Source: an uncultured Alphaproteobacteria bacterium (GTDB lineage Bacteria; Pseudomonadota; Alphaproteobacteria; Rs-D84). Taken from it: a stretch of DNA of 63,757 bases. This document shows, one piece after another, positions 40,858-44,791 of the stretch. The first letter of the stretch is position 1; each line of letters begins with the position of its first letter. The stretch spans positions 1-63,757 of the forward strand of contig CALXLG010000006.1 of the NCBI GenBank assembly GCA_944389135.1. Reading direction: 5' to 3'. The notes under the pieces were generated by a model, which worked only from the letters and a program-made list of their open reading frames with translations, had not been told where the DNA came from and made no database searches. The position numbers and the translations under genes are program-made.

Positions 40858-40934
40858 GCGAGCGTAGCTCAGTTGGCTAGAGCGCAACCTTGCCAAGGTT
40901 GAGGTCGAGGGTTCGAGCCCCTTTGCTCGCACCA
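40858..40934 (+). tRNA. tRNA-Gly (GCC)
   Basis: The 77-nt gene folds as a cloverleaf. Acceptor arms GCGAGCG and TGCTCGC pair (one G-T), the anticodon loop TTGCCAA holds GCC, the T-loop is TTCGAGC and CCA is encoded. Confidence 0.97.
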
Positions 40935-40941
40935 GAGTTTT

Positions 40942-40969
40942 AAAGAGTTCATTTGAACTCTTTTTTTTT
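40942..40969 (+). terminator. tRNA-Gly terminator
   Basis: AAAGAGTTC and GAACTCTTT form a 9-bp stem with a long T run. Confidence 0.88.
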
Positions 40970-41615: not shown

Positions 41616-41742
41616 AACATCTCCTTTCAATTATTGACATTATATCATATCTAATTGTTTGAATAAATTTATTTTTTATTGGTGGTCATTGGTGATTTAT
41701 GGTTTTATGGCAATTAATACTTTACTTTTAAATTTTTTTTAG

Positions 41743-41748
41743 TAATAA
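41743..41748 (+). promoter_or_regulatory. candidate -10 of the lysS leader
   Basis: TAATAA here is 16 bp after TTTACT (41721-41726). A start near 41755 would give a leader of about 137 nt containing the short ORF and the terminator. The match to consensus is only moderate. Confidence 0.4.
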
Positions 41749-41782
41749 TAACACTCAACTGGTCAGCATTACAGGGGCAAAG

Positions 41783-41812
41783 ATGTTTATTTGTAAAAAA
41801 ATTTTTTATTGA
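41783..41812 (+). CDS. lysS leader peptide (candidate)
   Basis: A 9-codon ORF, MFICKKIFY, has AGGGG five bases upstream of its ATG and two consecutive AAA Lys codons at 41795-41800. The stop is three bases before the first arm of an antiterminator. Two Lys codons in a low-GC genome are weak evidence alone; the position relative to the terminator and lysS is what makes it notable. Confidence 0.45.
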   Translation: MFICKKIFY

Positions 41813-41815
41813 TAC

Positions 41816-41866
41816 AGTGCGACCTTCAAAGTTATGACGGACGCACTTTTATGCGTCCGTTTTTTA
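41816..41866 (+). promoter_or_regulatory. lysS transcription attenuator (candidate)
   Basis: A 9-bp terminator stem (ACGGACGCA 41837-41845, TGCGTCCGT 41852-41860, then six T) lies 26 bp before lysS although no plus-strand gene ends upstream. AGTGCG-A-CC (41816-41824) can instead pair with GG-A-CGCACT (41839-41847), which overlaps the 5' arm of the terminator. A ribosome stalled on the Lys codons would leave this pairing free; one at the stop codon would cover it and let the terminator form. No reporter or structure data are available. Confidence 0.55.
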
Positions 41867-41891
41867 ATTAACCGCTTAAAAGGAAAAGAAA

Positions 41892-43370
41892 ATGTCAGAA
41901 AATACAAACAACACTACAAAAATATCTTCAAATGAATTAGAAGCGCGCTTGCAAAAGGCTGAAAATATTCGTAAGCGTGATGGGGTTGTTTGGAAAGATA
42001 AATTTGAACGCAGCAGTACGATTGCTGATGCACGTAATTTGTCCGATGGTGCTAAAGTAAAGCTTGCAGGGCGTGTGACCGCTTTGCGTTGGTTAGGCAA
42101 GCTTATGTTTGGGCGTATTTATGATATTGATGGTGAAATTCAATTCTCTATGTCCCGTGAAGAACTGGGTGAGGAGCAATATAAGTTTATGAAAGCGAAT
42201 GTAGACTTGGGTGATTTCATCGGTATTACAGGTGAACTTTATCATACGACAGCAGGTGAATTAACTGTCAAAGTAGCGTCTTATGAAATTTTATCCAAGG
42301 CTTTACGTCCTTTGCCAGAAAAGTTTCATGGGCTTACGGATATGGAAACTAGGTATCGTCAACGCTATCTGGATATAATTTCAAATGAAGATACGCGTAA
42401 TACCATGAAAATGCGCTTTAAGATGTTACGTCTTATTCGTGAATATTTGAATGCAAATGGTTTTGTAGAAGTTGAAACACCGATTATGCAGGTCGTTGCA
42501 AGTGGTGCAGCGGCAAGGCCGTTCATTACTCACCATAATGCGTTGGATGCAGATTTTTATTTACGTATTGCCCCAGAATTATTCTTAAAGCAGACAATTG
42601 CTGCTGGTTTTGATAGGGTTTACGAACTGGGTAAGAACTTCCGCAATGAAGGTATGGACGCAATGCATTTACAAGAATTTACTATGTTGGAATGGTATGC
42701 GGCTTACTGGAATTATAAAGATAACATAGAATTTTCTTGGAATATGGTTCAGAAGCTTATCAAAGACCTGCGTGGTAGCTTGCAGATTGAATACCAAGGT
42801 ACAATGTTAGATTTTAGTAAATATGAAGAAATAGATTACACAGCGCGTATGAATGATTTGCTTGGTGTGGATATTTTAGAATTCAAGGATACAGATGCAT
42901 TGAAAAAGCAACTGGTTGAAAAGGGTATGTTCCCAGCAGATGAGTTAGAACCGTTAAAGTCTGTTCCTTCTATAGTTGACTATGTGTTTAAGCGTAAAAT
43001 CCGTGATCAAATAGTTCAACCAGCGATAGTTTATAATTATCCTGCATATTTGATACCGTTGGCGCGTCGCAATGATGAAGATAATAGACGTATTGATATA
43101 TTCCAGCTTATTGTATGTGGGGCGGAATTAATCAAGGCGTATTCAGAACTTGTTGACCCAATTGTTCAACGTGCTGCATTTGAAGAGCAGGCAAGAAATA
43201 AAGCGGCAGGTGATGAAGAAGCATTTGATTTAGATGAAGATTTCTTGCGTGCAATGGAACACGGTATGCCACCTATTTCTGGGCTTGGATTAGGAATAGA
43301 TAGATTTTTCTCTATTATTGCTAATCAGCCAACTTTAAGAGACGTAATATTGTTCCCAATTATGAAATAG
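41892..43370 (+). CDS. lysS: lysyl-tRNA synthetase, class II
   Basis: LysRS charges tRNA-Lys. The 492-residue protein has an N-terminal OB fold (about 55-150), motif 1 around VEVETPIMQ, motif 2 FRNEGMDAMHLQEFTMLEWY, seen as FRNEGMDAMHLQEFTMLE, and motif 3 GLGLGIDRF. Many alphaproteobacteria use class I LysRS instead, so a class II enzyme is of note. Motif 2 differs from the common [20 protein letters not shown], and some active-site segments (PAYLIPLAR, HGMPP) are also variant. AAAGGAAAAG precedes the ATG. Confidence 0.93.
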   Translation: MSENTNNTTKISSNELEARLQKAENIRKRDGVVWKDKFERSSTIADARNLSDGAKVKLAGRVTALRWLGKLMFGRIYDIDGEIQFSMSREELGEEQYKFMKANVDLGDFIGITGELYHTTAGELTVKVASYEILSKALRPLPEKFHGLTDMETRYRQRYLDIISNEDTRNTMKMRFKMLRLIREYLNANGFVEVETPIMQVVASGAAARPFITHHNALDADFYLRIAPELFLKQTIAAGFDRVYELGKNFRNEGMDAMHLQEFTMLEWYAAYWNYKDNIEFSWNMVQKLIKDLRGSLQIEYQGTMLDFSKYEEIDYTARMNDLLGVDILEFKDTDALKKQLVEKGMFPADELEPLKSVPSIVDYVFKRKIRDQIVQPAIVYNYPAYLIPLARRNDEDNRRIDIFQLIVCGAELIKAYSELVDPIVQRAAFEEQARNKAAGDEEAFDLDEDFLRAMEHGMPPISGLGLGIDRFFSIIANQPTLRDVILFPIMK

Positions 43371-43390: not shown

Positions 43391-44791
43391 ATGCCTGGCC
43401 GATATTCAGAAAGTTATGCATCAGTTTTATCTGCTGAACAAGATAGAAAAAACCAGATTGCTATTAAAAAAGCACTAGAGTCTGGACGTATAAATGATGA
43501 AGCTGCGCAATATCTATCAGAGTTATATACAGATAGTTTTGTTTGGTTTCGTGAGGTATTTTATTTCTTAGGAAAGTGCTTTGGTGCGCCTAAAGCTCCT
43601 GTTATGAGATATGACTATGAAACAGACAGTGCGATAGATGAACCAATCAAAATTTCTGATATAAACCCATTACATCCCTATATTGTGCATCATCGTTTGG
43701 ATGCAGATCCTATGCGAAACCAGTTTTTTACTAGTGGTGCAGGTCATAAGATTGATTTGGCTGTGTCATCCATTGTAACGGTAATCGTTGGTGCACAGAA
43801 AAATATTGACCGTGCTTTGGATAAAATTACTGGTAAATATTATTCAGCGTATGTTGAAGATGTTGCAAATACAGTTTATCAAGTAATTGCAAAAAACGAA
43901 CGTGAAGCTTCTGCGCGTGCGGTGGCAGACAAAATCCGTGTAAAGCTAAATGAAAAATATGTTTCAACACCAGCGGAAACAGTACTTTCAATAATTGGTT
44001 CTGGACACGAGAAATTGGCTGTAGAATTGGTGCGCGAATTAGATAAGGTCAAACGTCCAAGAATGCGCCTGCAGGATGTTTGGCGTGTAAAATGCTTGTT
44101 TGATTTGATTCCACAGGCAAGAACATTTATAGAACGTGTACAGGCTATGATGCCGGACAGAATTTTGTCTATAAAAGATAAATTTTATGATATGGAAAAC
44201 CCACGTAATTATCGTGATGCAAAGTTAATAATTGATATTGGTAAGGATGGCAGGGTAGTGCCACTAGAGATTATTTGCCAAGTTAGAATGTTTTTTGAGT
44301 TTGAACGTAAAACACATGGTAATTATGAAATTACAAGAAAATCACGAAGCGGCAAAGTTGAAAACAAACGAAAAGCAATTGGGTGCCTCCACGAAGACGG
44401 TATTAAGGAATATAACCTTATGATATGTCAATGCTTAGAAGATTTGTTTGAACGTGTGGGTTGGAATATTTTATACAGTCGTGATAATGGTGTATCTATG
44501 TTTGAAGGTTTCCCAAAACCGTGTACGCTTTATTATCCGCCAAAGATATTAGATATAATAATAGATAAGTTGGATAATGCTATAGAGAATGAGGTATTTC
44601 ATGTTACAAATGCCCCAGCAAAACTGACCCAAGCCCAAGAAAGTGAAATCTTTCGTTTTATGGCGCGGTTCGTTTTAATTGCGGCCATGCCTTATGTTAA
44701 TGTAGATTGGGACGTGCCATCAGATACAATGGCTGGCAAATTGTTTAATTTTGTTATGACAGAAATTCAAAGGTATTATAAAAAAAGTTAA
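43391..44791 (+). CDS. protein with RelA/SpoT-like nucleotidyltransferase region (tentative)
   Basis: The 466-residue protein is mostly unrecognised. Its middle third has features of the Rel/Spo domain: a basic KRPRMRLQDVWRVKCLF helix, IKDKFYDMENPRNYRDAKLII, which resembles the K-D-x-Y/NYRD substrate loop, and PLEIICQVRMFF, which resembles the EIQ-VR strand. Whether it makes or breaks (p)ppGpp, or something else, is unknown; the HD hydrolase motif is not seen. GGAGG precedes the ATG and the gene follows lysS by 20 bp, so it probably shares its control. Confidence 0.5.
   Translation: MPGRYSESYASVLSAEQDRKNQIAIKKALESGRINDEAAQYLSELYTDSFVWFREVFYFLGKCFGAPKAPVMRYDYETDSAIDEPIKISDINPLHPYIVHHRLDADPMRNQFFTSGAGHKIDLAVSSIVTVIVGAQKNIDRALDKITGKYYSAYVEDVANTVYQVIAKNEREASARAVADKIRVKLNEKYVSTPAETVLSIIGSGHEKLAVELVRELDKVKRPRMRLQDVWRVKCLFDLIPQARTFIERVQAMMPDRILSIKDKFYDMENPRNYRDAKLIIDIGKDGRVVPLEIICQVRMFFEFERKTHGNYEITRKSRSGKVENKRKAIGCLHEDGIKEYNLMICQCLEDLFERVGWNILYSRDNGVSMFEGFPKPCTLYYPPKILDIIIDKLDNAIENEVFHVTNAPAKLTQAQESEIFRFMARFVLIAAMPYVNVDWDVPSDTMAGKLFNFVMTEIQRYYKKS

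Follow-up and report, generated by a model that had tools for sequence, protein, structure and literature searches.

The window (the whole 63,757-nucleotide stretch of DNA that was analysed) is a single contig and belongs to a 986,597-base genome. Among named bacteria the closest relatives are Candidatus Enterousia, which are uncultured Alphaproteobacteria of the gut, and the host of the window is a Candidatus Enterousia-like alphaproteobacterium with a genome of ~1 Mb in the GTDB order Rs-D84. Published Enterousia of this order have genomes of ~1 Mb and incomplete amino-acid biosynthesis (PMC12306168). The window carries lysS, the gene of a lysine–tRNA ligase (LysRS), preceded by a short leader with the following elements:

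41721-41749, plus strand: candidate sigma-70-like promoter, TTTACT-17-AATAAT (9 of 12 consensus positions, weak alone)
41761-41770, plus strand: region 1, GGTCAGCATT, able to pair with arm 2 in an untranslated leader (MFE fold; duplexes in relatives)
41773-41777, plus strand: Shine-Dalgarno-like AGGGG, 5 nt before the leader ORF
41783-41812, plus strand: leader ORF, ATGTTTATTTGTAAAAAAATTTTTTATTGA, nine codons (MFICKKIFY) and a TGA stop
41795-41800, plus strand: putative control codons AAA AAA (Lys5-Lys6)
41817-41824, plus strand: arm 2, GTGCGACC, the 5' arm of the antiterminator (conservation, pairing)
41839-41846, plus strand: arm 3, GGACGCAC, common to the antiterminator and the terminator (pairing conservation)
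41836-41866, plus strand: intrinsic terminator, stem 41836-41845/41852-41861, T run to 41865
41892-43370, plus strand: lysS, class II lysine–tRNA ligase of 492 aa, the regulated gene in our reading (TIGR00499, 513.9 bits; cut-off 427.6)

The nine-codon ORF with its Shine-Dalgarno sequence and two AAA codons was indeed found where the original prediction had placed it. The gene 5' of the leader is divergent, on the minus strand (41630-41004), and the tRNA-Gly gene (40858-40934) is followed by a terminator of its own (40942-40963). The terminator at 41836-41866 therefore serves no upstream plus-strand gene, as had been proposed. Its hairpin (41836-41861) reads GACGGACGCA-CTTTTA-TGCGTCCGTT and is followed by the T run, with the ATG of lysS at 41892, 26 nt on. 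The alternative pairing of AGTGCGACC (41816-41824) with GGACGCACT (41839-41847) is present and overlaps the 5' arm of the terminator, but it is not the unbroken 8-bp helix originally described, as it consists of five plus two pairs flanking one A-A mismatch, with a terminal A-T pair in addition. The first nucleotides of the two Lys codons lie 22 and 19 nt 5' of arm 2. The RNA 41756-41866 is more stable than 200 of 200 dinucleotide shuffles (z -3.1). A promoter-like sequence, TTTACTTTT...TAATAAT, was seen by eye, uncounted, 5' of the leaders in several relatives.

At the Rfam gathering score the window yielded tRNAs only and no known regulatory RNA family. Within 41630-41920, the only Rfam matches were chance sRNA matches with E 0.15 or worse, and neither a T-box nor a lysine riboswitch matched at E up to 10; identity as a T-box or as an L-box (lysine) riboswitch was rejected on these grounds. 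Immediately 3' of lysS lies a conserved gene of 466 aa (43391-44788), for which no NCBIfam match was found; similar proteins follow class I LysRS genes in relatives.

Conservation of the leader among relatives

Upstream DNA of LysRS genes was collected across the genus, family and order to which the window belongs. Leaders were selected by an ORF ending beside the arm-2 motif, and lysine was not a criterion; eleven motif-variant leaders were added manually after inspection, which amounts to mild selection, and one further leader, from genome G039, was counted apart. The resulting 129 non-identical leaders, from the genus and neighbouring genera of one family, share one plan: the ORF with its Lys codons is conserved jointly with the antiterminator arm and the terminator. 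The ORF has 8-11 codons in all 129, starting with ATG in 126, GTG in two and TTG in one, and ending with TAA, TGA or TAG. The leaders encode 111 distinct peptides, for example MFICKKIFY, MKLFIKRFN, MRTYGKKSLL and MSGQTKKFS, yet in every one of them one or more Lys codons stand 3-6 codons ahead of the stop, which itself always lies 0-7 nt upstream of arm 2. On the lysS DNA tree (85 tips), Lys in this pre-stop window underwent no change, against 23 changes for Ile, 18 for Phe and 17 for Leu. The identity of the stop codon changed 14 times, with the stop itself always present. The Lys codons of the leaders are AAA in 284 cases and AAG in 19, compared with 14 AAA and 17 AAG in the lysS gene of the window. 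Four leaders carry a single Lys, which is few for classical control codons.

Some genomes have LysRS genes without the leader (L180, L189, L100, L104, L193-L198). Many of the "no terminator" scores in the terminator search arise because the search required a perfect stem or ran into a contig end, and do not show absence. The original prediction had named a terminator kept in relatives without the ORF as evidence against itself; this arrangement does occur, in two genomes (L183 in G063 and L114 in G108), but only as rare losses. A second leader copy, encoding MVLNFKKIFK, is found on the minus strand of G007 (L229, C34:5710-5819) before an apparently broken lysS start, and the same contig also has an intact leader and lysS.

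The leader and exchange of the LysRS enzyme

A covariance model built on the lysS leaders was run against 201 genomes of the order. It matched 155 of them at E 0.01 or better, a few of these matches being weak, and exactly one match fell in the genome of the window. The class I LysRS fold is unrelated to that of class II. We nevertheless found the leader directly before a class I LysRS gene in seven genomes with no class II lysS match (G013, G095, G103, G105, G123, G127 and G169; the enzyme of G169 matches NCBIfam PRK00750 with 773 bits), and overall a class I LysRS lies behind the leader in eight genomes in which class II lysS is absent or displaced. The gene order in G125 is leader, class I LysRS, class II lysS (L228), and G165 has class I and then class II LysRS at a contig end (L182, L398); these tandems, each within one operon, are possible intermediates of an enzyme swap. 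G185 has a class II lysS with the leader peptide MSNNTKKFS and also a class I LysRS of a different type (TIGR00467, 484 bits), which is preceded by a second leader encoding MSYICKKLI. In G180 the leader also lies 5' of a distant class II LysRS. The leader of G203 was considered as an exception preceding an epimerase gene, which was rejected, as the very next gene is a class I LysRS. Class I LysRS copies located elsewhere in genomes of the genus had no leader (G019, G064, G102, G109, G121, G167).

The presence of the leader before non-homologous LysRS replacements ties it to LysRS function at one locus, and not to protein homology. A switch that persists across the replacement of an enzyme by a non-homologous one is a natural experiment and provides near-direct evidence for the signal that is sensed. 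The original proposal of attenuation of a class II lysS is thus supported but was too narrow, since the leader also precedes class I LysRS, and leaders precede other synthetases.

Outside the family, G039 has a LysRS 41% identical to that of the window, with an upstream ORF encoding MSLKRKQLKKFFAA; here TGCGATGTT pairs with AACATCGCA, and the terminator begins with the latter segment. This leader may be either an old common element changed past recognition or of independent origin. In other Alphaproteobacteria, none of 29 class I LysRS genes had an ORF with KK or KR plus a terminator within 250 nt, so the system is seemingly confined to the order Rs-D84, as far as sampled.

As regards the enzyme itself, the closest LysRS to that of the window beyond Enterousia and its relatives are those of Clostridia/Christensenella, at 55-58%, and those of other families of the order are only ~40% identical. 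It is possible, from these similarities, that the lysS of the window (41892-43370) was gained horizontally.

Competing RNA structures and a proposed mechanism

Arm 2 and the 3' arm of the terminator both target GG(A/G)CGCAC. In an alignment of 87 leaders, 93.7% of the cells of the terminator are paired, with 26 double-sided changes, and 97.9% of those of the antiterminator, with five double-sided changes; 0 of 500 shuffles reached either value. The covariation that the original prediction had called for is thus present in the terminator and to some extent in the antiterminator, where it is thin because arm 2 is almost invariant within the genus. In 120 of the 129 leaders, the A or G at the third position of arm 3 pairs with arm 4 (U or C) and is mismatched to arm 2; the terminator therefore covaries at a position where the antiterminator retains a mismatch.

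We folded the leaders with a masked ribosome, whose footprint was assumed to span 13 nt counted from the start of the A-site codon, at the stage before the 3' arm of the terminator exists. The mean probability of the antiterminator was 0.93 with the ribosome stalled at Lys and 0.005 with the ribosome at the stop. Arm 2 was entirely free in 129 of 129 leaders under the Lys stall, whereas a ribosome at the stop covered ~6.6 of its 8 nt. When the full RNA was folded at equilibrium under the Lys stall, the terminator had a mean probability of 0.68, and of 0.97 in the window's own leader. The terminator is thus favoured at equilibrium in many leaders despite the stall, and antitermination must therefore be kinetic. 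Duplexes between region 1 and arm 2 in relatives average -7.9 kcal/mol, compared with -5.9 kcal/mol in shuffles, 26% of which score as well, giving modest support to this pairing as a third structure.

Taken together, the locus combines a short ORF with cognate Lys codons, whose translation is indicated by the conservation of its frame, start and stop; an intrinsic terminator between this ORF and lysS; a mutually exclusive antiterminator that uses the 5' arm of the terminator; a spacing at which a ribosome masks arm 2 from the stop but not from the control codons; and a downstream LysRS gene, class II or class I, cognate to Lys. It is very likely, judging from sequence comparison, that the lysS leader acts as a transcription attenuator of the classical ribosome-mediated kind, sensing charged tRNA-Lys and controlling the supply of LysRS, and the comparison of 129 leaders, together with the exchanges of the LysRS enzyme, bears out the Lys leader-peptide reading proposed originally.

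Promoter use, stalling, sensing of charged tRNA, termination and readthrough, as we infer them, would proceed as follows. Transcription would start near 41756, and a ribosome translating MFICKKIFY would trail the RNA polymerase. With ample Lys-tRNA, the ribosome would get to the stop (41810-41812) and mask most of arm 2, so that arm 3 and the 3' arm of the terminator would pair and transcription would stop near 41862. With scarce Lys-tRNA, it would stall on the AAA codons and leave arm 2 free to pair with arm 3 ahead of the synthesis of the terminator 3' arm; the terminator would then fail and lysS would be transcribed. In an untranslated leader, region 1 may sequester arm 2 and the terminator would stay on.

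Stalling by the nascent leader peptide in the manner of SecM or SpeFL, with lysine, arginine or another ligand sensed and not hungry codons, would agree with the conserved K(K/R) core and with the Arg that follows the core Lys in 39 of 129 leaders. We consider it improbable, because the peptide otherwise varies greatly (111 sequences), because 8-11 residues are too few to extend deep into the exit tunnel, and because the Ile, Thr and His leaders before cognate synthetases described below are most simply explained by codon reading. Still less probable is that the terminator belongs to an independent small RNA or to a tRNA-Gly read-through transcript and that the ORF is incidental. The leader does directly follow a tRNA-Gly in several relatives (L002, L022, L039), and the two losses of the ORF noted above left a terminator behind; against this, the Lys codon, the stop position and the reading frame are constant in 129 leaders, the element stays with LysRS through enzyme exchange, and the tRNA-Gly of the window is separately terminated. 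Finally, Lys codons and U-tracts are common in AT-rich leaders, and the caution in the original prediction that two Lys codons are weak on their own was well placed, as short upstream ORFs with at least two Lys in six codons also precede 25-50% of other synthetase genes; but with 32 of 32 LysRS genes positive in the same test, and a leader plan conserved in 129 of 129 leaders with no change of Lys on the tree, a chance origin is effectively excluded.

Other synthetase leaders and comparison with known systems

Short ORFs rich in cognate codons also precede other synthetase genes in the genome of the window and its relatives, namely ileS (18 of 19), thrS (18 of 19) and hisS (16 of 18); the leaders of all three genes are conserved, and such codon runs are rare before the other genes. 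The ileS leader (L240-L259; own genome G000:C1, L200/L240) ends in three to four Ile codons, usually Lys, and the stop, as in MKLISIIIIK, and by eye has a terminator and, upstream of it, an arm that competes (TGCGCT versus GGGGCGC); from these features we regard it as a predicted Ile attenuator. The thrS leader (L295-L313; own genome L204/L295) encodes MINKSILLITMTTTTPLGV, ending in ...TTTTTTPLGV, with a CCCC-UUU-GGGG hairpin within the end of the ORF, and the hisS leader (L270-L287; own genome L208/L270) encodes MISKEYLYRLVHHALVGDCL, with ...FHHARAG...; by eye, neither has a clear terminator. In many hisS loci, a conserved TGATATAAT after the leader ORF resembles a second promoter within the leader region. 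Before metG (L325-L344; own genome L203/L325), a tiny ORF, MRMYN or MMRMYN, is accompanied by AACGGG/CCCGTT arms and a terminator (by eye), and the motif ATGCGNATG occurs in 8 of 20 loci and before none of the other genes; from its sequence, this is likely a Met attenuator-type leader.

It seems reasonably probable that auxotrophic, reduced-genome Enterousia control LysRS, IleRS, ThrRS, HisRS and probably also MetRS by cognate leaders, and that the Lys leader has outlived several exchanges of its enzyme, including those between the unrelated LysRS classes. This would suggest that cells of ~1 Mb without complete amino-acid biosynthesis (PMC12306168) still control tRNA charging amino acid by amino acid, and the lysS leader would be a hint of how a host-dependent bacterium tracks its amino-acid supply.

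A Lys-specific attenuator of LysRS was not found described in the literature searched, which yielded no report of a LysRS leader-peptide attenuator; the review by Lopatovskaya et al. 2010 (doi 10.1134/S0026893310010164), the likeliest place for one, lay outside the search. No lysine element was seen in Actinobacteria (PMC1262725). In Streptomyces, trpS and leuS are predicted to have classical leader-peptide attenuators in one or two species (PMC1262725); those concern other amino acids and another phylum, whereas more than 100 LysRS leaders are described here.

Other known systems resemble the lysS leader in part. T-boxes, which respond to uncharged tRNA, likewise regulate synthetase genes through transcription antitermination. 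Unlike the lysS leader, they and the L-box (lysine) riboswitches need no translation and sense tRNA or lysine directly; in scope, the Enterousia set of synthetase leaders, if true, would approximate the T-box regulon of Firmicutes. The pheST leader peptide, PheM, has Phe control codons, and its RNA forms competing antiterminator and terminator structures. The lysS leader is like this gamma-proteobacterial system in its cognate control codons, in the competition of antiterminator and terminator, and in having a synthetase as its target. Among classical attenuators, pheST is a named case (PMC1262725). The two differ in the amino acid, Phe there and Lys here, their sequences are unrelated, and the Lys leader has been kept across an exchange of enzyme class.
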